From positions 124,001 to 188,000 of the forward strand of contig BOKF01000003.1 of the NCBI GenBank assembly GCA_016860845.1: DNA of 64,000 nt, read 5' to 3'. The position numbers and the translations under genes were made by a program. The notes beneath the pieces are model-generated. The model was given only the letters and a program-made list of their open reading frames with translations, had not been told where the DNA came from and searched no databases. The stretch is from Chloroflexota bacterium (lineage in GTDB: Bacteria > Chloroflexota > Anaerolineae > 4572-78 > J111). Of the stretch, positions 15,848 to 61,083 are shown piece by piece. How positions within the stretch are numbered: the stretch's first letter is position 1; each line of letters begins with the position of its first letter.

Positions 15848-17731
15848 ATGACTGTTGAAGAAAAGATCTTTCCTCAAGACGAACCAGAACCCCTGCCGGA
15901 TGAACCGGACAAGCTGAAGACAGCGCCAGATGAGGCGGAGACCTTGCCGGATGAGTCGGAAGCCCTCCCCCCAGATGAATCGGAGGCCCTCTCAGATGAA
16001 GAGGAAACCCTCCCAGACACCGACACGCCGGCCGCGGTCCAGGCCCGTTCCTGGCGCTACTTTATCGCCGGGATGGGCCTGGCCTTGCTGGCGGTGGCGT
16101 TGGGAGCCGTGCTAGGCTACCTGGCCCGGCCGGCCTTGGAACCGGCCATTTCCTCAACGACGGGCGCTCTTACCCCGGCTGAAAGCGGGGCATCTGCAGC
16201 TCCGACGCCGGTCGTGGCCGCCCCAACGACCCAAGCGCCCGCTAACGTGGTGGATATCGTCCAGGCTGGTGGCCACAGCCAGGGGTCGCCAGATGCGCCG
16301 GTGGTCATCGTTGAGTACAGCGACTTTCAATGCCCTTACTGCGGCCGCCATTTTAGAGAGGTCGAAGGTCGGCTGAAAGAGGCGTATGTCCAAAATGGTC
16401 AAGTACGCTTGGTCTACAAGCACTATACTATTCTGGGGCAGGAGTCAGTGTGGGCCGCCCTGGCCTCAGAGTGCGCGGCTGCCTTCGGCCAGAACAAATT
16501 CTGGGAATATCACAACTTGGTTTTCTCCCGGCAAAATGGCGAAAATCAAGGGGCCTTTAACCCGGACAATTTGAAGGCCTGGGCTGGCGAATTGGGTCTG
16601 GATACAGCCACCTTCAACCAGTGTTTTGACTCGCAAAAATATCTGGCTGTGGTGCAGGCCAACACCGCCGAAGCGCAGCAGTTGGGCATCCGCGGAACGC
16701 CTGGCTTTTTCGTCAATGGCACCTCTGTCGCCGGAGCGCAGCCGTTTGAGGTCTTTCAACAGGTGATTGAGGCGGAATTGGCCAAGATCCAGTCGTCGGG
16801 AGATGGGGCAACGCCTGCGGCTAATAACAGCGCCAGCACGGGAGCAGACGCGGCAACGCCGACGGCCGCCGGCGCGAGCGCGGCAGCAACGCCTCCACCG
16901 ACCGAGGAGCAGGGGGATGTGCAGATCGCCCAGATACGCGGCCTGGGCTTCTCCGCCGATGGTCGCCAACTCGTTGTGGCCACCAATGAAGGTTTCCGTA
17001 TCTTCGCTGATGACACATGGTCTGTACCAGACCTGCCCAAGCACGACTACCTGGGCTACGAGGTGACGGATGACGGGTTCTACAGCAGCGGCTATCCCGA
17101 CCCGACAGCTAATATGGTCAGCCCCCTCGGCCTGGTCAAAAGTACCGACGGGGGCAAAACCCTGACCAAGTTGGCCTTCGAGGGGGAGAGTGATTTTAAC
17201 CTGGTCGGGGTGGGTTATCGCAACCATGCCATCTATGTGTTCAACGGCGTGCCCAATTCCAAGCTGACGCTGGGGATTCACTACAGCCTGGACGATGGGC
17301 AGACCTGGCAAGAGAGCGGCCTGCGCGGGCTTAAAAACAGTCCGGCGCGAATCGCCGTACATCCGACGGAAGCCAACCGCGTAGCTATAGCGACAGAAGG
17401 TGGCCTGCTCCTCTCGTCCGACTATGGGGATACGTTTGAGCCGGTTGGCGAGAGCGGCCCGGCGATCGCCGCGGCCTTCGATCCGGGCGGCGCGCTGCTC
17501 TTTTTTGGCTATCAGCAGTTGTCTGCCTACGAGTTGGCGAATAAGAAAATCCTACCCCTGACCACGCCGACCATCTCCGAGCAGGATGCGATTGCCTATA
17601 TCGCCGTGAGTCCGACAAAGCTTGAAGAGATGGCTTTTGCTACCTTCCTGGGCGACCTTCATTTCTCCCAGGATGGCGGCCAGACCTGGCAGCAGCTTCT
17701 CCAGGCGGGCAAAGGAAAATCTGTACAATGA
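15848..17731 (+). CDS. DsbA-like thiol oxidoreductase fused to F510_1955-type beta-propeller
   Basis: This 627-residue fusion starts with a Glu/Asp/Pro-rich cytoplasmic repeat (about 10-60) and a membrane anchor (about 74-96). A DsbA/thioredoxin-4 domain follows with YSDFQCPYCGRHF (CPYC at about 162-165) and the cis-Pro loop RGTPGFFVNG. A low-complexity Ala/Thr linker leads to a ~270-residue BNR propeller of the F510_1955 type. The propeller closely resembles the free-standing one at 34410-35459. DsbA domains form or isomerise disulfides outside the cell. The stop overlaps the permuted ccdA start (ATGA), so the CcdA probably recycles this domain. Confidence 0.88.
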   Translation: MTVEEKIFPQDEPEPLPDEPDKLKTAPDEAETLPDESEALPPDESEALSDEEETLPDTDTPAAVQARSWRYFIAGMGLALLAVALGAVLGYLARPALEPAISSTTGALTPAESGASAAPTPVVAAPTTQAPANVVDIVQAGGHSQGSPDAPVVIVEYSDFQCPYCGRHFREVEGRLKEAYVQNGQVRLVYKHYTILGQESVWAALASECAAAFGQNKFWEYHNLVFSRQNGENQGAFNPDNLKAWAGELGLDTATFNQCFDSQKYLAVVQANTAEAQQLGIRGTPGFFVNGTSVAGAQPFEVFQQVIEAELAKIQSSGDGATPAANNSASTGADAATPTAAGASAAATPPPTEEQGDVQIAQIRGLGFSADGRQLVVATNEGFRIFADDTWSVPDLPKHDYLGYEVTDDGFYSSGYPDPTANMVSPLGLVKSTDGGKTLTKLAFEGESDFNLVGVGYRNHAIYVFNGVPNSKLTLGIHYSLDDGQTWQESGLRGLKNSPARIAVHPTEANRVAIATEGGLLLSSDYGDTFEPVGESGPAIAAAFDPGGALLFFGYQQLSAYELANKKILPLTTPTISEQDAIAYIAVSPTKLEEMAFATFLGDLHFSQDGGQTWQQLLQAGKGKSVQ

Positions 17732-18540
17732 CAAAGATTACCGGCCTTACCTCCACCACGACTACAGCGAGCGTAGTCGGCTCAGCCGAGCGACTGACGA
17801 CCTTTGCCCACGCCATCCTGTTCGTGCTGGGCTTTTCGCTGGTGTTTATCGTCGGTTGGGGTGGCGCAGCCACTATACTGGGACAACTCTTTACGGCGAA
17901 CAAAATCTTGCTGAGCCGAATCGGGGGGGTGATTGTCATTGTCTTCGGCCTGCATACCTTAGGCCTCTGGCAACTGCCCTGGCTGAACTACGACACTCGC
18001 CCAGCTTGGTGGCGTCCGGGCCGGGGCGGCCGCCTCTCAGCGGCATTGCTAGGCTTGGCCTTTGCCGCCGGCTGGACGCCGTGCATCGGCACAATTTTGG
18101 GGGCCATCCTGACGCTAGGGTTCAGCCAACAGACCTCCGGGCAGGCGATGGTGCTGGCCAGTGGTTATGCCCTCGGTTTGGGTTTGCCCTTCCTGGCCAT
18201 CAGCCTGCTGCTGGATCGCGCCTTCGCCGTCACTCGCTGGCTGCGGCGATACACCCGCCAGATTCAAATCTTCAGCGGTTTGCTACTCATAGCGATGGGA
18301 GCGCTGCTGTTAACGAACCAGATGTTCTACCTTGCTATTTGGGCCCAGCGTAACGGGCTATACCTGGACCTCCAACTGGGCCAGGCGGCGACCCCGACCT
18401 ATCTCATCGCCATCCTGGCCGGCCTGTTGTCGTTTCTCTCGCCTTGCGTCCTGCCGCTGGTGCCGGCCTATATCGGCTATCTCGGTGGGCAGTTGCAGCC
18501 GATTGCCGGGCCGATGGTGAGTGGAGGCCAGGATGGCTGA
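17728..18540 (+). CDS. CcdA-family protein, circularly permuted
   Basis: This 270-residue protein has the same rotated helix order as the one at 7405-8181. It starts with the helix-2 equivalent (HAILFVLGFSLVFIVGWGG), has AAGWTPCIGTILGAIL in the middle and ends with LLSFLSPCVLPLVPAYIGYL. Both key cysteines, TPC and SPC, are retained, so the fold is probably active. CcdA carries electrons from cytoplasmic thioredoxin to outside thioredoxin-like partners, here most likely the overlapping DsbA fusion. A clear ATGA overlap precedes it and the next gene starts inside its 3' end. Confidence 0.87.
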   Translation: MTKITGLTSTTTTASVVGSAERLTTFAHAILFVLGFSLVFIVGWGGAATILGQLFTANKILLSRIGGVIVIVFGLHTLGLWQLPWLNYDTRPAWWRPGRGGRLSAALLGLAFAAGWTPCIGTILGAILTLGFSQQTSGQAMVLASGYALGLGLPFLAISLLLDRAFAVTRWLRRYTRQIQIFSGLLLIAMGALLLTNQMFYLAIWAQRNGLYLDLQLGQAATPTYLIAILAGLLSFLSPCVLPLVPAYIGYLGGQLQPIAGPMVSGGQDG

Positions 18541-19645
18541 GACAACTCAACCCCGGGCTGCCACAACCCACGCATACTCCGCGCTGGCTGAATCTTCCCG
18601 GCAAAACACTATCACTGGCGCAAACAAATATTTAGCGATGCTACTCCTCTGCGTCTCATTGATTTTGGGGATGGGTAGCGGTTATCTGATTCGGGGCCAT
18701 TCTTCGGGCAGTCCTGGCATCACCTCGATAACTGGGGCCAGTGTCCCCTCCGAACAGGTATCTTCGGTCATCCCGATGGATTTTCCTGGTAATTACACTC
18801 CGCCAACTTCGGGCAGTCTTGATACTACCTCGATGAATGTGGCCGGCGTTACCTTAGAACCAACTTCTCCGGTCAACCCGACTATTCTGCCCAATAGTTA
18901 CACCCTGCCAGCTTCCTTTGGCGACATTGGCCCTCAATTACTGGCCGCCGGCGCGATTGATTATGACCGCTTTGTCCAGGTCTATGCCGAAGCAGAGCAG
19001 CCCCTGACTGAAGAACAGCTCAAAATTCTGACCAAAGGGAGCAATACGCCGGTCGTTATAAACTGGGAAAACGCCTACTTCCTGCTCAACTTTTTCTGGG
19101 CCTTTGGACTGGCCAACCAAAACCCCATATTGGAAACGGGGCCGATGAAGCAAAACAGCGAAGGCGGCGATATTGGCGGCTTCGCCTCGACCGGCGGCTG
19201 GACGCTTGGGACCAAGCCGGCCACGGACCTCTACGCCAGCACACCGATCATCACCCTGACCCCTGAGCAGCAGGCCCGCCTGGAGGCAGTCGCTCAAGCC
19301 GTTTATCGCCCCTGCTGCGACAATCCAACCGATTTCCCTGACTGCAATCACGGCATGGCCATGTTGGGCCTGCTGGAACTGATGGCCGCGCAAGGCGCTA
19401 CTGAAGACGAGATGTACACAGCGGCCAAATATCTCAATGCATTTTGGTTCCCGCAGCAATCGTTGGAGATGGCAACGTTTTTCAAGCATACCCAAAACCT
19501 GGACTTTGCCCAGGTGGATGCCCGCGAATTTGTTGGCCCCAAAGTTTCCTCGGGAACTGGCTTTCAGGCCATCCATCAATGGTTGGCGTCAAACAATCTG
19601 TTGGATCAGTCCTCTAATCGTGGCGGCAGTTGTGCCGTGCAGTGA
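18533..19645 (+). CDS. Unknown membrane-anchored protein with CCDNP...DCNHG motif (paralog 1)
   Basis: I do not recognise a named family. This 370-residue protein has one N-terminal membrane anchor (about 35-55), a Ser/Thr/Pro linker and a globular C-terminal domain starting near LPASFGDIGPQLLAAGAIDY. The most striking feature is YRPCCDNPTDFPDCNHGMAM, a Cys-Cys...Cys-x-His cluster that could bind metal or haem, followed by a predicted helical pair. A paralog at 60055-61083 keeps this motif and most of the globular domain. GGAGG 5 bp upstream selects ATG 18533 inside the ccdA 3' end. The ccdA linkage suggests thiol or metal chemistry outside the cell. Confidence 0.8.
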   Translation: MAETTQPRAATTHAYSALAESSRQNTITGANKYLAMLLLCVSLILGMGSGYLIRGHSSGSPGITSITGASVPSEQVSSVIPMDFPGNYTPPTSGSLDTTSMNVAGVTLEPTSPVNPTILPNSYTLPASFGDIGPQLLAAGAIDYDRFVQVYAEAEQPLTEEQLKILTKGSNTPVVINWENAYFLLNFFWAFGLANQNPILETGPMKQNSEGGDIGGFASTGGWTLGTKPATDLYASTPIITLTPEQQARLEAVAQAVYRPCCDNPTDFPDCNHGMAMLGLLELMAAQGATEDEMYTAAKYLNAFWFPQQSLEMATFFKHTQNLDFAQVDAREFVGPKVSSGTGFQAIHQWLASNNLLDQSSNRGGSCAVQ

Positions 19646-19671: not shown

Positions 19672-19722
19672 ATGGATTTCGGTTTAGGTGCTTTGGGGTT
19701 TTCTTCGCATCGGACAGGCACT
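19672..19722 (+). pseudogene. Truncated ORF start at the mer-cassette junction
   Basis: AGGAGGGG at 19659-19666 correctly precedes ATG 19672 and the first codons read MDFGLGALGF. The frame then runs into sequence antisense to merT and becomes meaningless. This looks like the start of a gene cut off when the mercury cassette arrived. The exact breakpoint between about 19690 and 19722 cannot be fixed by eye. Confidence 0.4.
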
Positions 19723-20063
19723 TACATGGTTATCGTCATGGGTAGGGGCAATGCGGCCAGGAAGGTGAACACTATCATCAACCCCGCCGAGAGCCAGACC
19801 AGCCAGCGTTGCCGGCGTAACGCTTGCGGCGAGCAGACCCCGCTGGCACAGTCGGCCTGGGCCTGAGGCCGGTACACCAGGTAGAAGGCGAAGGCCAACA
19901 TCACAAAACTGAAGGTGAGCGTAAGTGGCCGGTAACGCATCAGCACGGCAAAGGGGCCGAGGCCGGTAAACCCCAAAGCCAGCAAGATCGTCGGCAAAAT
20001 GCAGCAACTGGCGCTGAGGGTGGCGGCGACTGTGGAAATGAGTGACCCGAATTTGCTGATCAT
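19722..20063 (-). CDS. merT: MerT mercuric ion transporter
   Basis: This 113-residue, three-helix protein imports Hg(II) received from MerP and hands it to MerA. The first-helix vicinal cysteines read LSASCCILPTI (Cys20-Cys21) and the cytoplasmic-side pair is DCASGVC (Cys72, Cys77). Both are hallmarks of MerT. Its ATG overlaps the UGA-containing merP stop by ATGA. It is the last gene of the minus-strand mer operon. Confidence 0.92.
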   Translation of the reverse strand: MISKFGSLISTVAATLSASCCILPTILLALGFTGLGPFAVLMRYRPLTLTFSFVMLAFAFYLVYRPQAQADCASGVCSPQALRRQRWLVWLSAGLMIVFTFLAALPLPMTITM

Positions 20064-20614
20064 GGTTCAAACGTCCTTTCGACGCTGTAGCCAACAGCTT
20101 CGATCTTTTGAATGATTTGCACTGGGGTCACTTGGGCCGGGTCGTAAGTAACAATGAGCGTACCCGTGGCCAAGTTCCCTGTGATTTCACCGATCCCCGG
20201 CAACTGCCGGACGCTTGCCAGCGTGATGGCAATTCAGCCGTTTCAGGTCCAGCCATGGACAGTGAAGCCAAGCCTCGTCTCCAATCCAGCCGGGTTTGTC
20301 GCAATTGAGCCGATTGCGGGGGTGGGGGCTATCTTCTGGGCAGGTGTCGCTGGTGGTGGCGCGGCTGTGGGCGGGGTGGCTTTAACCGGGGCTGCGGAAG
20401 TTGAGACAATTACGGGGGTGGGGACTATCTCCTGGGCAGTTGTCGCTGGTGGTGGTGCGCTGGTTGACGCCGTGGCCGGAATACTCTGTTTCGGCTGTGG
20501 CGCACAGGCACTCAAGCCGATGGTCAGGGCAATGCCTATCAACAGCCAACTGAGTGACGCGGGCCAAAGCCCTCTGAGCCTGGAGTGTGATTTGTCAGAT
20601 GGGGACTTACTCAT
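20060..20614 (-). CDS. merP: MerP-like HMA lipoprotein with two in-frame UGA codons (probable UxxU selenoprotein)
   Basis: Read through, this frame gives 184 residues. It has a signal with lipobox LSAC (Cys37), a Pro/Ala/Thr linker holding two copies of an APPPAT-AQ-PTP unit, and a complete HMA domain. The metal motif reads GWT-UGA-NG-UGA-IAITLASV, where homologs have GMTCxxCPI. Both UGA codons (20243-20245 and 20234-20236) therefore replace the two metal-binding cysteines. Downstream residues VRQLPGIGEI and VTYDPAQVTPVQIIQKIEAVGY are perfect HMA. The frame begins at ATG 20614 overlapping the upstream stop, and ends at TGA 20060-20062 overlapping merT's ATG. Both ATGA junctions require the full frame. 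A SECIS-like hairpin follows (20197-20210). TGA is an ordinary stop in neighbouring genes, so code reassignment is unlikely. Confidence 0.8.
20197..20210 (-). promoter_or_regulatory. SECIS-like hairpin in merP
   Basis: In the mRNA, CCGGC-AGUU-GCCGG forms a 5 bp GC stem (extendable by a U-G pair) with a four-base loop. The loop has G in its second position and starts 28 nt after the second UGA and 37 nt after the first. Bacterial SECIS elements are short stems inside the coding region whose apical loop, with an early G, lies about 16-37 nt after the UGA. The geometry fits, but sequence alone cannot prove SelB binding. Confidence 0.5.
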
Positions 20615-21099
20615 AGGGACTTTACTCCTTTAGTAAATTGGGTTTCCGCTTGCGCGTGGCGGCGGTTGGGGGAGAGCGTACAGTAACGGGTGGCCCGGTG
20701 AGCCAGCCACGCATCGAGCACAGAAGCACTGAATAACAGGGCCAACCCGGCATACACCAGGCCGACCCACAGCGTCACCTCGAGCGTGTGATGGAAGGGG
20801 TAGAGCAGCAGCCCCGCGCCGATAGCGGCCACGATAAATGGCCAGGGGCGGCGATGGCGTCGCCAGGAGAGCCCAAAGCCCAGGCCGGAGAAGGTGAGAG
20901 CCACGTAAATGAGTCGCTCTGCATTCGCGGTGTAGACGAGAAAACCAAGGCCAAGGGTAGGCAAGAGACTGGCCAGGCCCGTCCAGCCTATGCAACACAT
21001 CACTGCCAAGCCGCCAAAGGTTGAGCCGGCCGAGCCGAGCCAGGGCAATAGCCGTTCAAGTCGCCAGGTGACACCGTTCCCACCCTCACTTCTAAGCAT
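20611..21099 (-). CDS. MerC/MerT-like mercury transport membrane protein
   Basis: This 162-residue protein has four to five membrane helices and a vicinal Cys pair in LAVMCCIGWTGL (Cys35-Cys36) in the first helix, as in MerC/MerT Hg(II) importers. The start at ATG 21099 overlaps the merB stop by 8 bp, and its own stop overlaps the merP ATG by 4 bp. This makes a tight merB-(this)-merP-merT chain. An upstream ATG at 21132 would lie deep in merB and is less likely. Which importer subfamily it belongs to needs a profile search. Confidence 0.75.
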   Translation of the reverse strand: MLRSEGGNGVTWRLERLLPWLGSAGSTFGGLAVMCCIGWTGLASLLPTLGLGFLVYTANAERLIYVALTFSGLGFGLSWRRHRRPWPFIVAAIGAGLLLYPFHHTLEVTLWVGLVYAGLALLFSASVLDAWLAHRATRYCTLSPNRRHAQAETQFTKGVKSL

Positions 21100-21766
21100 A
21101 CTTAAGATTTTCCTCAAATCGAATACGCCCAAGTTGGTATCCCTCTTCTATTGAGAGGATGATTGGCTCTTCGTCTTTCCCCAAGAACCATTCTGAGGCC
21201 GCTTCAGGGGAACTAAAGATATGGACATGGTTACAAAAGGCCAGCCAGACTCCTTCGGCAGAACCCGACTCCAAAATGTTTGTTTTGGGGATGATGATGG
21301 AGATGACGGCGCTGGTTGGCTCATATAGTTCTACTCCCTCAGGCGTTATCGTTAGCCGAATCTTCTTTGCAGTGGCAGGACAAGAGGACTCGACCACAGC
21401 AGTTTGCTTGAGAATGGGCGGCAGGAATAAAGTGTCCCAGCCACACCAGGCAAACAGCAGATGATCATTTACCTGAAATCGGTATGAATGATGAGGGTTC
21501 AGTGATAACCCGGTCCAGCCGACAATGTTGCCTTCAGCATTGAACTCGAAACCTGCTTTATACTTACTCTGAAAAGCGGTCAAGGTGTTATGAGGTATTT
21601 GGAGATGAGCGGCTATTTGCTCGACTTGTTCAAGGGTGATAGGCCGACCTTCAGCTAAGAGTCGCCAGATTTGAATGACCAGGCGTGATACGTCTGGCCC
21701 AAAATTTATATCAATGCCCGCCTTACTTAACCCTGCGGAAATTTCATATAGGTTTGGTGTTTTCAC
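21092..21766 (-). CDS. merB: MerB, organomercurial lyase
   Basis: MerB splits carbon-mercury bonds, releasing Hg(II) for MerA. The catalytic set is present: Cys in FAWCGWDTLF (Cys108, with Asp111) and Cys in AFCNHVHIF (Cys178). These correspond to Cys96, Asp99 and Cys159 of the R831b enzyme. The N-terminal winged-helix-like domain and C-terminal HIFSSPEAASEWF are also typical. GTG 21766 is chosen because AAGGAG lies 7 bp before it; the ATG at 21787 would put that site inside the gene. With MerB the operon gives broad-spectrum (organic and inorganic) resistance. Confidence 0.92.
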   Translation of the reverse strand: MKTPNLYEISAGLSKAGIDINFGPDVSRLVIQIWRLLAEGRPITLEQVEQIAAHLQIPHNTLTAFQSKYKAGFEFNAEGNIVGWTGLSLNPHHSYRFQVNDHLLFAWCGWDTLFLPPILKQTAVVESSCPATAKKIRLTITPEGVELYEPTSAVISIIIPKTNILESGSAEGVWLAFCNHVHIFSSPEAASEWFLGKDEEPIILSIEEGYQLGRIRFEENLKYA

Positions 21767-21838
21767 AATTCCTATCTCCTTAAGCATAACATTTACATTC
21801 AGTCCACATCACAACTACACTTTGCTATCTCTGTGGAG

Positions 21839-23269
21839 TCACTCCGCGCAGCAGGAGAGCTTCGCCGGGTCTTTGTAGCGCGAGATAGCCACAATCTTTA
21901 ACGCCTCGGCCATGGTTGGGTAGACGTGGAGCAGGTCAATGAAATCATCCAGGGTAGCGCCCAGGCGCAAGCCCATAGCCGCCTCGTGGATGACCTCGCC
22001 GGCATCCCGCATGACCAGTGACACGCCGAGCACTTTGTTTGTATCCACATCAATCACCATCTTGGCGATGCCACGGGTATCCCGTATCGCCCCGGCTCGC
22101 GGCACCAGTTTGACCGGGATGGTGTTGCACCAACAGCGATGGCCCTGCGCGTTGGCTTCAGCATCGGTCAGGCCCACCACAGCCACTTGCGGGTCGGTGA
22201 AGATCGTCCGGGGGATCACGGTGTGGTTCACCTTCCGCCGTTCATCGTTCAGCGCGTTCAAAGCAGCAATGCCGCCGTCGTGAGCGCCGACCGGCGTGGC
22301 AAGCTGGCTTCCCGTATGGCTTCCAATCACATCACCGGCCGCCCATACGTAGGGGATATTTGTCTGTAGTTCGTCGTTGACCTTGACGAAGCCCCGCTCG
22401 TCCAACGCCACTCCAATTTTCTCAATTCCGATGTTGTCGGTGTTCGGTATCCGGCCGGTGGCGACGAGCAGCCGTTCCGCTCGGAAACGCTGCTCAACCC
22501 CACCCTTCTGACCAACGACAACGATTTCGTCACTTTCCTGGAAGACACGTTGCGCCTGAACTCCCGTCACCAGAGTGATCCCCTCCTCAAGCAGAGCATC
22601 GGTCAAGGTCCTTGAAACTTCCGGCTCGTACTCCTTGAGAATCCGGCGGCTCCGCTCAAGGATGGTCACTTGACTACCAAAACGATGGAACATCTGGCCT
22701 AGCTCGAGCGCAATGTAGCCACCGCCGATGATAACTAAGGATTTAGGTAATTCGAACAGTTCTTGCGGTTCGCCTGAGGTCAGTAAATCAGAGGTAAGGT
22801 AGGGTACTTGATCAAGACCCTCAATCGTGGGGAGGGTCGGCCGGCTGCCGGTGGCGATGAGAAACTGCTCCCCGGATAGGACGCGACCATCAACCATGAC
22901 GGTGCGGTTATCCAAGAACGCCACGTGGCCCTGATAGACCTTGATCTTGTCCACGTCCTCCACAATCGAGTTGTACTTACGATCGCGGTAATCGTGAATG
23001 ACCTCATCCTTCTGGCGAATGAGTTCCTTAAAATCAAATTCAATCCTGGCCGGTCGCAAGCCTGGATAGCGGGGATACTGCGCCTCCCAGATGATGCGGG
23101 CCGCCTCGATGAGGTTCTTGCTGGGCAAGCAGCCACGGTTGACACACGTGCCGCCGAGGGTGCGGGACTCGGTCATGACCGCCGTCCTGCCCAACTCGGC
23201 GGTCCTGAGTGCAGCCGCGAAGGCGGTCGAGCCGGAGCCGAGGATCACGAGATCGAATTTTTCAGCCAT
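21839..23269 (-). CDS. merA: MerA, mercuric reductase
   Basis: This 476-residue flavoprotein disulfide reductase reduces Hg(II) to Hg(0) with NADPH in the cytoplasm. The FAD motif [10 protein letters not shown] is N-terminal and the redox pair GTCVNRGC gives Cys42 and Cys47. An NAD(P)-binding [10 protein letters not shown] lies mid-protein. The C-terminus ends LSCCAE, the vicinal Cys pair that passes Hg(II) into the active site and distinguishes MerA from dihydrolipoamide dehydrogenase. The N-terminal HMA domain found in many MerA proteins is absent. The gene lies between merR and merB. Confidence 0.95.
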
Positions 23270-23299: not shown

Positions 23300-23788
23300 T
23301 CAACGGTCATCATCAATCTCCCGGTGTTTGAGCTCTTTAATTTGAATGAGGTGACAGACACACTCCTTCATTTCAATGTCATCGTCGGGTAAATCGCTGG
23401 CCTGGCGCAGTAACTGCTGCAAATCCTGCTGTAGTTCTTGCAACTGGCGAATCCGTTCCTCAACCTCCGCTGCCTTTTCCTCAAGCAGGTGGGCCACATA
23501 ACGACAAGGCGCTTCACCTTGATCTCGCAGGGCCAGCACTTCTTTGAGGTCATCCAGGGAAAAGCCCAAGCTACGGGCGTTGCGGATGAAGCGCAGCCGC
23601 CGCACATCCTCTACATCATAGAGCCGATAACGATTCTTGGCTCGCTGTGCTGGGGGCAACAAGCCTACTTGCTCGTAAAAACGGATCGTTTTAGTTGAAG
23701 CGCCGCTGGCCTGAGCCAATTCACCAATGCGTAGCCCACCGACTGTTTGTGCATCCGTTTGTTCCAATTGTTTGCCACCTGTCTTCAT
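23300..23788 (-). CDS. merR: MerR-family mercury-responsive regulator
   Basis: This 162-residue protein starts with a MerR helix-turn-helix (GELAQASGASTKTIRFYEQVGLL), followed by the dimerisation coiled coil. Three potential Hg ligands are present: Cys95 in GEAPCRYV and Cys143/Cys145 in KECVCHLIQ, matching the three cysteines of classical MerR. GAGGAG precedes ATG 23788. The gene is co-transcribed with merA rather than divergent, from a MerR-type promoter at 23983-24013, so it is autoregulated. Confidence 0.92.
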   Translation of the reverse strand: MKTGGKQLEQTDAQTVGGLRIGELAQASGASTKTIRFYEQVGLLPPAQRAKNRYRLYDVEDVRRLRFIRNARSLGFSLDDLKEVLALRDQGEAPCRYVAHLLEEKAAEVEERIRQLQELQQDLQQLLRQASDLPDDDIEMKECVCHLIQIKELKHREIDDDR

Positions 23789-24131: not shown

Positions 24132-24152
24132 CCGGCCCAAACAATCATAGAG

Positions 24153-24352
24153 AAGCCAGTGAAGGTGCGCCAGCCGCCCGGATGCGCGGCGCACAATGGG
24201 GGAAGACCGGTGCAAGTCCGGCGCTGTCCCGCAACGGTAACATTGGATTTTAGATTTTAGATTTTAGATTTTGGATTTCGGTCTACCATCCAAAATCGTC
24301 AATCCAAAATCCAAAATCGGTGAAGCCCGAATACCCGCTTTCACTGGGGCTT
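24153..24352 (+). promoter_or_regulatory. Cobalamin (B12) riboswitch with internal repeat insertion
   Basis: The conserved core is clear: a GGTGC...GCGCC-like 5' stem, then ACCGGTGCAAGTCCGGCGCT and the B12 box GTCCCGCAACGGTAA (about 24207-24240). After a gap comes the 3' conserved GGTGAAGCCCGAATACCCGC. The gap (24243-24318) is filled by an AT-rich GGATTTTAGATTTT inverted repeat instead of a short variable stem. Two terminator-like hairpins and then btuF-like, permease and ATPase genes follow, so B12 binding probably represses the importer. Confidence 0.92.
24243..24318. repeat. GGATTTTAGATTTT inverted repeat inside the riboswitch
   Basis: Four tandem GATTTTAG-like units face three reverse copies (CCAAAATC), giving a ~30 bp imperfect hairpin. 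It replaces the variable arm between the B12 box and the 3' riboswitch core. Its AT-rich composition differs sharply from the flanks, suggesting insertion or expansion of a dispersed repeat. Confidence 0.75.
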
Positions 24353-24404
24353 GTGTTCCACCTTCGTGGAGAAAGGGGGCCAAGGCAGTGGATGTTGTGC
24401 GTGG

Positions 24405-31120: not shown

Positions 31121-31570
31121 TTAGGATGTTTGGGATTTGGTAGCTCGACCGGCTTTCCGCCACGCTATAACCCGCCAAGCTCCCATACCTGCCAGCACAA
31201 TCAGCCCACCGCCAACCAAGAAGGGCAGAGGATTGACCCTATTAGCCACTTCAACAGTTGTCTCTTCCAGACGAGGCAAACTGGCTCGATAGAAAGATTT
31301 AGTATTAATGGCCTCTACCATTTGAGTCGGGGTGACCCGGGCCGGATCGTAGCTGACCATGGCTAATCCTTTGACATAATCAGCTTTGGCCTCCACGACG
31401 CCATCCAGGCTTCCCAAGATGTTTTCCACGGCAGCGGCGCAGAAGGGACAGACCATCCCTTCGACAGGGAGGGTGATGGTTTCCAGGGTATCCTGGGCGT
31501 GAGCCGGGCCCACTGTCGCCCCTAGCAAATCTAAGGTCAACAGCCACATCCACCATTTGGTTCGCTGCAT
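31121..31570 (-). CDS. Secreted MerP-like HMA protein with C-terminal membrane anchor
   Basis: This ~149-residue protein has a cleavable-looking signal (ending PAHAQ), then an HMA domain with GMVCPFCAAAVE as the metal site, and a C-terminal membrane helix (about 110-130) with a basic tail. It presents a metal-binding domain outside the membrane. The CcdA-like gene lies immediately upstream in the same MerR-controlled transcript. TAGGAGG selects the second ATG (31570). MerP-like binding of a soft metal before import is the likely role. Confidence 0.82.
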   Translation of the reverse strand: MQRTKWWMWLLTLDLLGATVGPAHAQDTLETITLPVEGMVCPFCAAAVENILGSLDGVVEAKADYVKGLAMVSYDPARVTPTQMVEAINTKSFYRASLPRLEETTVEVANRVNPLPFLVGGGLIVLAGMGAWRVIAWRKAGRATKSQTS

Positions 31571-35536: not shown

Positions 35537-35998
35537 ATGAGCGAACAATCTGTCAACGAATTGTCTGATGAGCTTGATTCTGGCGATCCGGTTAAAGGTA
35601 TTTGGATTTTGCTAGGCGTTATCGTCCTAATCATCGGCGCTTTTATCTTCCTGCGCTCCGAACCGAGCGACATCAGCAGCGTGGATGAGTTGACGGTAAT
35701 GTTAACAGACGGTCAGCCCAAGGTCATCGAGTTTTACTCCAATTTCTGAAGCATCTGCCTGGTGAACAAACCCATCGTGGATGGGTTAGAACGTGATCTG
35801 GCCGGTAAAGTAGCCGTGGTTCGCCTTGATATCACGACCTCGTTGGGCCTACAAGCCGCAGTTACTTATGGGGTGCGGGGGGTACCCACTTTAATCGTCG
35901 TTGATGGTCAGGGTGAGCCTGTCTTAACTCAGATTAGCCTGATCCGGCCTGGTGCAGTGAAAGATCAAGTGGATGCGCTCCTGGCGCAAACCCCCTAA
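35537..35998 (+). CDS. Membrane thioredoxin-like protein with in-frame UGA (probable UxxC selenoprotein)
   Basis: Read through the UGA at 35747-35749 this gene encodes 153 residues: a short cytoplasmic N-terminus, one membrane helix (about 23-43) and a thioredoxin fold. The active site reads KVIEFYSNF-UGA-SICLVNKP, where homologs have CxxC. The UGA is residue 71 and Cys is residue 74. Downstream the frame keeps the thioredoxin pattern: VAVVRLDITTS, then YGVRGVPTLIVVDGQG with the cis-Pro. ATG 35537 follows GGGAG at a good distance. An 8 bp hairpin at 35769-35787 has SECIS geometry. The alternatives, a nonsense-mutated gene or two proteins, fit less well because the coding sequence continues undamaged and no start or RBS follows the UGA. 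Confidence 0.8.
35769..35787 (+). promoter_or_regulatory. SECIS-like hairpin in the UGA-containing thioredoxin gene
   Basis: AACCCAUC-GUG-GAUGGGUU is a perfect 8 bp stem with a three-base loop starting with G. The loop begins 27 nt after UGA 35747-35749, nearly the same distance as in merP. It matches the expected position (about 16-37 nt) and early loop G of bacterial SECIS elements. Confidence 0.55.
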
Positions 35999-60054: not shown

Positions 60055-61083
60055 ATGGACAACTTCGACCAAGACCCTCTTCCATCTCGACCAGACAGCG
60101 AAACCCCTGAAGGCTCTCCACCGCTGACATCAGTGGTTGGTCCAGCCGAACCCACAGCCAGAGCCAGCCAGAGCCACGAATTTTGGCCGCTCTATCTGTT
60201 CTTTACCTTTATCCTGGGGCTGGGCAGCGGCTACCTGATCTGGGGACGCACTTCAATCACTCCCAATCCCCCGGCGACACCCCAGGCCGGCGCTCCAACG
60301 GAGCAGCCTGTGTCGGTGAGCCAGGTGGCGCTACCTGAAAGCTACAGCCTGCCGGTTTCCTTCGGCGACATCGGCCCTCGGTTAGTGGCCGCCGGTGCGA
60401 TTGACTATGATCGCTTTGTCCAACTCTATGCCGAGGCCGGTCAGCCCCTGACTGAAGAACAGTTGAAACTTCTGACAAGAGGGAGCGATGCGCCCGTCGT
60501 CATTAACCGGGAAAACGCCTACTTCCTGCTCAACTTTCTGTGGGTCGTGGGTCTGACCAATCAAAACCCTGTGTTGACCGAGGGGGCGATGCAGCAATAC
60601 AGCCAAGGCGACATCAGCGGCTTCGCCTCGACCGGCGGTTGGACGATTGGCACAAAGCCGGCCACGGAGTTATACGCCAGCACACCGCTTATCAAATTGA
60701 CCCCTGAGCAGCAGGCTCGTCTGGCGGCTGTCGCCCAGGCCGTTTATCGCCCCTGTTGTGACAACCCCACTGCCTTTCCCGACTGCAATCACGGGATGGC
60801 CATGTTGGGCCTGCTGGAATTGCTGGCCGCGCAAGGCGCGACTGAGGACGAAATGTTTACAGCCGCCAAGTATGTCAATGCCTTTTGGTTCCCGCAGCAA
60901 ACCCTGGAATTGGCGATTCTCTACAAAGTAAGCCGAAACCAGGATTTTGCCGAGGTGGATGCCCGCGAATTGGTTGGGCCTGGCCTCTCCTCTGGCACCG
61001 GCTTTCAACGGGCCCACCAATGGTTAGCCGACAACGGCTTGCTGGAGCAAGCGCCTAATAGCGGCAACAATTGCGGGGTGTAG
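60055..61083 (+). CDS. Unknown membrane-anchored protein with CCDNP...DCNHG motif (paralog 2)
   Basis: This 342-residue paralog of the protein at 18533-19645 has one membrane anchor (about 42-62), a linker and a globular domain with YRPCCDNPTAFPDCNHGMAM. The domain is conserved from LPVSFGDIGPRL to the C-terminal Cys. The motif could be a metal or haem site. A cupredoxin and a CcdA-like gene follow, as a CcdA precedes the first paralog, so the family seems tied to thiol or copper chemistry. No function is known to me. Confidence 0.8.
   Translation: MDNFDQDPLPSRPDSETPEGSPPLTSVVGPAEPTARASQSHEFWPLYLFFTFILGLGSGYLIWGRTSITPNPPATPQAGAPTEQPVSVSQVALPESYSLPVSFGDIGPRLVAAGAIDYDRFVQLYAEAGQPLTEEQLKLLTRGSDAPVVINRENAYFLLNFLWVVGLTNQNPVLTEGAMQQYSQGDISGFASTGGWTIGTKPATELYASTPLIKLTPEQQARLAAVAQAVYRPCCDNPTAFPDCNHGMAMLGLLELLAAQGATEDEMFTAAKYVNAFWFPQQTLELAILYKVSRNQDFAEVDARELVGPGLSSGTGFQRAHQWLADNGLLEQAPNSGNNCGV

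Follow-up and report, generated by a model that had tools for sequence, protein, structure and literature searches.

MerP is an extracytoplasmic protein with Cys metal ligands that is encoded beside MerT in mer operons, and in its motif a Met precedes the ligand. Mercury is bound more tightly by selenium than by sulfur, and part of the toxicity of mercury is the loss of selenium to it. Selenocysteine (Sec) has already been predicted in HMA and mercuric-transport proteins. The selenoproteins tabulated in an ocean survey include MerP and putative mercuric transport proteins, with two sequences each and no motif in that table (PMC2398784), which bears out an earlier note on the DNA studied here that had mentioned Sec-containing MerP-like proteins from metagenome surveys. 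The table of a recent review assigns two Sec to NF041115, as a UxxU protein, and a single Sec to PF02411, and the review adds that the part played by such selenoproteins in metal detoxification has yet to be worked out (PMC13188914).

Here we describe a gene with two in-frame TGA codons in a mer operon of the window, by which we mean the whole 64,000-nucleotide stretch of DNA, from a likely Chloroflexota bacterium, that was analysed. The earlier note had proposed that it encodes a lipid-anchored Hg(II) scavenger with two Sec residues that feeds MerT, and our results support this reading. With a probability of roughly four in five, we consider the gene to encode a predicted lipid-anchored HMA selenoprotein in which both UGAs specify Sec and the UxxU motif binds Hg(II) outside and passes it to MerT. 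Sec decoding of the UGAs is well supported by sequence comparison, while we infer lipidation at C37, efficient reading of both UGAs, hand-over of the metal to MerT and, from the operon, Hg(II) as the cargo.

The gene, its product and the mer operon

The gene lies on the minus strand (Table 1), a detail absent from the earlier note; a plus-strand reading of the same interval gives no sensible protein. With TGA translated as U, the product reads MSKSPSDK...GWTUNGUIAITLASVRQLPG...FEP from the ATG at 20614, and its HMA part reads GFTVHGWT-U-NG-U-IAITLASVRQLPG...GYSVERTFEP. The description in the earlier note of one open frame, with a TGA for each of the two ligands and ATGA coupling at both ends, is confirmed: the frame overlaps by ATGA with the MerC-like frame, which ends at 20611, and with MerT, which starts at 20063. 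The HMA domain downstream of the TGAs is intact as well, the PF00403 match covering both the motif and the sequence after it.

Table 1. Features of the predicted selenoprotein gene and its operon in the window
Feature	Coordinates	Strand	Remarks
Predicted selenoprotein gene	20060..20614	minus	184 residues; two in-frame TGA; final stop TGA 20062-20060
Lipobox-type Cys codon, LSA-C, residue 37	20504..20506	minus	Cys invariant in seven-row family alignment
HMA domain PF00403, residues 117-176	20087..20266	minus	42.8 bits, cut-off 24.8
First TGA, residue U124	20243..20245	minus	aligns with Cys of P0005
Second TGA, residue U127	20234..20236	minus	Cys codon in 5 of 9 other loci
Hairpin 1, alignment columns 14-31	20215..20232	minus	covarying stem between UGAs and hairpin 2
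Hairpin 2, candidate bacterial SECIS	20196..20211	minus	UCCGGC-AGUU-GCCGGG
MerT mercuric transporter	19722..20063	minus	PF02411 56.8 bits, cut-off 32.9; start overlaps selenoprotein stop (ATGA)
MerC-like membrane protein	20611..21132	minus	PF03203 52.2 bits, cut-off 27.6; stop overlaps selenoprotein start
MerB-like alkylmercury lyase	21092..21787	minus	PF03243 91.2 bits, cut-off 27
MerA mercuric reductase	21839..23269	minus	TIGR02053 509.1 bits, cut-off 454.45
MerR-family regulator	23300..23788	minus	PF00376 and PF09278 both above cut-off, no NCBIfam subtype reaching its own

The product consists of a lipoprotein-type signal, a long Pro/Ala-rich linker and a C-terminal HMA domain. We regard LSAC at residue 37 as a candidate lipobox, judged by eye against the consensus. 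An AF2 model, in which Cys replaced Sec, reached a pLDDT of 90-95 in blocks 111-180 (70.2 for the whole protein, pTM 0.46) and placed a helix of modest confidence at residues 17-35, the candidate signal region. The modeled HMA part has the beta-alpha-beta-beta-alpha-beta fold with the ligand pair in the first loop, and Foldseek matched the model to metallochaperones with TM values by target of up to 0.95. PF00403 was also matched over its cut-off by the relatives described below (38.2 bits for L143 and 34.7 for P0005).

The gene order of the operon is a MerR-family regulator, MerA, the MerB-like gene and the MerC-like gene upstream of the selenoprotein gene, with MerT downstream. The listed start of the MerC-like frame is a TTG, and its true start may be internal. 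MerT lies directly downstream of the selenoprotein gene in 8 of 10 loci, and in 7 of those 8 the two genes share the ATGA overlap; no MerT was found downstream in L122 and L123, and in the 19.5 kb fetched around L123 there was no other mer gene. In the fetched stretches of the nine relatives, a MerA-like frame occurs in seven (32-40% identical to that of the window), a MerR-like frame in five and a MerB-like frame in three. An Acidobacteria mer cluster (L025, 513-1815, plus strand) encodes, in this order, a MerT-like protein, an HMA protein with GWT-C-GS-C behind a signal-like start, a MerC-like protein and MerA; this HMA protein is a Cys counterpart at the equivalent position.

Several other features of the window were recorded. 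A cobalamin riboswitch (24146-24356, plus strand, 56.3 bits) precedes genes that by eye look like a transporter for B12 or siderophores, with its binding protein, permease and ATPase. Two proteins that look similar by eye (18521-19645 and 60055-61083, both on the plus strand) share a PCCDNP...CNHG motif and resemble the CYCXC family, for which a Sec form is listed; the former had no NCBIfam match and no Pfam match over the cut-off. The frame at 15848-17731 (plus strand) fuses a thioredoxin-type domain to an F510_1955-type domain (200.1 bits, over the cut-off of 175). Its thioredoxin part scores 178.9 bits with the Rcas_1661 family, just below the cut-off of 190; the name of this family is (seleno)lipoprotein, and the window protein has Cys.

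UxxU, UxxC and CxxC members of the family

Relatives with the lipoprotein-HMA gene were found at nine loci in eight other genomes. All of them carry TGA at the first ligand position, and the second is TGA in four and Cys in five. The UxxU members are the window gene, L118, L119, L143 and L144, and the UxxC members are L120, L121, L122, L123 and L142; one genome (G419) carries both forms. P0005, present as a protein record only, is a full-length lipoprotein-like protein, 49% identical, with Cys at both positions (CxxC). The earlier note had named unrelated sequence after the stop in homologs, and reads with Cys codons at 20234-20245, as outcomes that would speak against its proposal. The homologs keep the same HMA sequence beyond the TGAs across loci, some with Cys in place of Sec, and a sequencing error is very unlikely because the TGA recurs in the nine loci of the eight other genomes.

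The family is rare in the genomes searched. The read-through query matched 112 of 396 class genomes at E 1e-6, nearly all through HMA domains of other proteins; the gene is present in 6 of the 396, and an alignment search at E 1e-16 returned the same six. Among the 56 genomes of the taxonomic order to which the best match belongs, four carriers were found, two of them new. A draw of 400 genomes from the phylum gave eight matches, none of which belonged to the selenoprotein family; about ten candidates per genome were scored in these searches. At this depth of ten candidates per genome, no Cys-only member was found in the 396 genomes at E 1e-16. The gene was likewise absent from all 59 loci collected around related MerA genes and from those mer operons whose MerA is closest. 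When the read-through protein was scanned against genome and viral contigs, there was no match; six peptide patterns were used there, one of which demanded Cys codons in place of the TGAs, while the remaining five lay in variable parts. Plasmid records gave 84 matches, none covering more than 80% of the query, and 9 of the 10 among the matches listed were P-type ATPases. A tree of eleven family members gave no decision on a single origin of UxxU.

Other HMA frames with an in-frame TGA were observed in the course of these searches. A lipoprotein-like frame whose divergent HMA domain has TGA at its first ligand position (TMF-U-IAC) occurs in L118 (12093-12695, plus strand) and in L119 (17560-18423, plus strand). 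This frame is conserved between the two genomes, and a simple scan found no SECIS-model hairpin after its TGA. L119 also encodes a membrane-anchored HMA protein with the motif GMV-U-PVC (16692-17882, plus strand), followed at a distance of 18 nt by a SECIS-model hairpin, and a similar-looking Cys form of this protein occurs in the window (31298-31471, minus strand). The frame in L149 (1327-1860, plus strand) encodes a GFT-U-SSC HMA protein behind a membrane segment with no evident lipobox; a hairpin with a GGUC loop lies 17 nt after its UGA, and the genome has tRNA-Sec (73.5 bits).

RNA hairpins and the selenocysteine machinery

Two hairpins follow the UGAs, and the loop of hairpin 2 lies 37 nt past the first and 28 nt past the second. 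We compared ten loci, which amount to nine distinct sequences, L140 being identical to L139 around the UGAs; since these nine are related, they do not count as independent. The sequence UCCGGC-AGUU-GCCGGG is retained at the same distances across the loci, and every cell of hairpin 2 is paired in all nine, with the loop AGGU in L122 and, in L120, a compensatory change of one inner G-C to C-G that turns a conserved Pro codon into Ala. Hairpin 1 has both sides changed in three of its six pairs and 81.5% of its cells paired, and in L139/L140 and L123 it falls out of register. For both helices together, 90.7% of cells are paired versus 82.3% in shuffles. The combined covariation score was matched by none of 500 shuffles and none of six slid registers, and the number of pairs changed on both sides was equalled by 8 of 500 shuffles and by a slide of +2. 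RNAalifold alone returned only hairpin 2 (plus one outer pair), with a covariation term of 0. When the window sequence was folded by itself, the MFE structure joined the two hairpin regions differently; because this single-sequence fold is ambiguous, the two-hairpin reading rests on comparison.

We also compared the fold with that of synonymous coding sequences, drawing codons per locus (for L138 and L139, the usage came from only three frames each). With both hairpins included, the fold was stronger than the peptide demands in 9 of 9 sequences (p 0.0005-0.0175); taken singly, p was below 0.05 for hairpin 2 in 8 of 9 and for hairpin 1 in 5 of 9. The bSECIS model described in the review asks for a loop of 3-9 nt with a G in the first two positions, a stem of 4-16 bp, a spacing of 16-37 nt and an MFE of at most -7.5 (PMC13188914). 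In a simple scan for this model, hairpin 2 agreed with it (loop AGUU, 6-bp stem, 37 nt, -9.3), the distance from the first UGA lying at the limit of the model. All nine distinct family members passed the scan, compared with 16 of 137 HMA domains with Cys from the loci analysed, and so did 2 of 4 other TGA-bearing HMA frames; the best-scoring hairpin in L123 was hairpin 1. A search of the window region with Rfam gave no SECIS, only the cobalamin riboswitch and two weak chance matches.

The Sec machinery was counted in the eight carrier genomes of the relatives, the genome of the window organism itself standing outside this count. SelA exceeded the cut-off in seven of the eight, SelB in five and tRNA-Sec in six (scores of 65.9-78.2), with all three present in five. 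One genome (G207) has SelA, a SelB fragment only and a tRNA-Ser as its best tRNA-Sec match, and in G419 SelB is present only as two pieces. ARAGORN reported tRNA-SeC (tca) in five of the seven loci it was given, four of them from carriers. Among 19 genomes chosen around related MerA genes (18 from Chloroflexota groups, one from Acidobacteria), SelB was over the cut-off in 18 and tRNA-Sec in all 19. The tRNA-Sec hits near the gathering score are uninformative, since 5 of 14 control genomes exceed that score; G011, with SelB below the cut-off, has such a hit (51.1, gathering score 47), at a level that controls reach too.

The window contains a second Sec candidate at 35537-35998 (plus strand), a membrane-anchored thioredoxin-like protein with the UxxC motif FYSNF-U-SIC (TGA at 35747-35749) that matches PF00085 with 37.0 bits against a cut-off of 23.5. 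By eye, a SECIS-like stem AACCCAU-CGUGG-AUGGGUU lies about 26 nt downstream of this TGA, and the synonymous-codon control gave p 0.037.

Interpretation and comparison with known systems

If the TGAs were true stops, the product would be a 123-residue lipoprotein tail, or the gene would be a decaying pseudogene or contain assembly errors. Database proteins do end at this point: P0003 and P0004, found by protein database search and 98 and 74% identical, end after residue 123, before the first TGA, and P0006, P0011, P0015, P0067 and P0087 end at the same site among 12 read of 86 profile matches, so that at least seven database proteins terminate exactly at the GWT or GFT preceding the first TGA. 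These truncated records show a stop codon there, not its identity. In addition, one UxxC carrier (G308) has no SelA, SelB or tRNA-Sec over the cut-off, and this lack counts against Sec decoding, though parts of this draft assembly may be missing, or the contig may not belong to it. Against termination, HMA identity is kept past the TGAs, TGA recurs at the same codon where P0005 has Cys, and conservation of the downstream hairpin exceeds what the coding sequence requires, which together make true stops highly improbable. The existence of the Cys homolog P0005 could also be taken to favor a reading in which a suppressor tRNA or an altered genetic code makes UGA specify Cys or Trp. To this we attach hardly any probability: TGA is the commonest stop in the window, ending 23 of 47 non-overlapping frames of at least 200 codons, and therefore speaks against general recoding; tRNA-Sec, SelA and SelB occur in most carriers; and tRNA-SeC was the sole tRNA with anticodon tca in the seven loci scanned.

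A rather unlikely alternative accepts a true UxxU selenoprotein and assigns it to copper or soft metals in general, or to redox protection of the thiols of MerT and MerA. The best NCBIfam profiles for the window protein are those of CopZ (42.6 and 40.8 bits, both below the cut-off), copper-binding domains are the solved structures closest to the model, MerP first appearing at rank 20, and L123 adjoins what by eye is a rhodanese-like lipoprotein. Another soft metal is possible because L122 and L123 lack MerT, L123 lacks mer genes and the profile is nearest to CopZ. The position of MerT in most loci and the MerR-type, MerA, MerB-like and MerC-like genes of the window operon point the other way, as does the Acidobacteria cluster. 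We regard a MerP-like role as most likely because of the MerT adjacency, the mer frames in the relatives and the Cys counterpart in L025.

For this MerP-like reading, we propose the following course of events. SelB with tRNA-Sec would decode both UGAs by binding the hairpin that lies 37 nt beyond the first and 28 nt beyond the second, and the protein would then lose its signal and be lipidated at C37. The diselenolate loop would capture Hg(II) on the outer side of the membrane, the Cys pair of MerT would take it over, and MerA would reduce it to Hg(0). In this scheme the protein would act as a membrane-fixed equivalent of MerP with a softer, tighter ligand pair. We lean slightly towards a fuller version, held jointly in all its parts: the protein would be a membrane-tethered diselenolate Hg receptor that uses Sec twice as a dedicated metal ligand and not as a redox catalyst, one distal SECIS behind a second covarying hairpin would serve both UGAs, and toggling of the second ligand between Sec and Cys by lineage would tune the affinity for Hg(II) before MerT. 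If this is true, the bacterium exploits Se-Hg chemistry by placing Sec in its mercury-catching protein. The natural UxxU, UxxC and CxxC versions, most Sec forms lying beside MerT, would offer a way to relate the identity of the ligands to the affinity for Hg(II) and its transfer.

Among the known systems, MerP (TIGR02052; NF033553 in Gram-positives) is also an HMA protein, and the window gene likewise stands beside MerT in a mer operon. The window protein scores only 13.7 bits with TIGR02052 against a cut-off of 92.55, and a Trp or Phe precedes the ligand in its family where MerP has Met. NF045683 (MerT_CopZ_Se, MerT/CopZ fusion-like heavy metal transport selenoprotein) likewise couples MerT-type and HMA-type parts; it is, however, one fused protein, whereas the window has two genes with overlapping ends, and against its cut-off of 375 bits the window selenoprotein scores 12.2 and the window MerT 28.5. 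The Sec mercury transport proteins of the ocean survey are likewise predicted Sec forms, and the table that lists them does not describe a lipoprotein UxxU mer form (PMC2398784). We found no record of a lipoprotein UxxU mer protein in the open PubMed Central literature. NF041115 (UxxU_metal_bind, metal-binding (seleno)protein), of which 251 genomes of the phylum contained no member over the cut-off, is likewise HMA-related with two Sec in U-x-x-U; it lacks the long signal and linker, since the profile has only 74 positions. Its cut-off is 95 bits, and the window protein scores 34.7 and the seven relatives tested score 19.3-37.8. Because the family falls far below this cut-off and differs in architecture, we set it apart as what appears to be a new, lipid-anchored and MerT-coupled variant of the Sec-containing HMA proteins.
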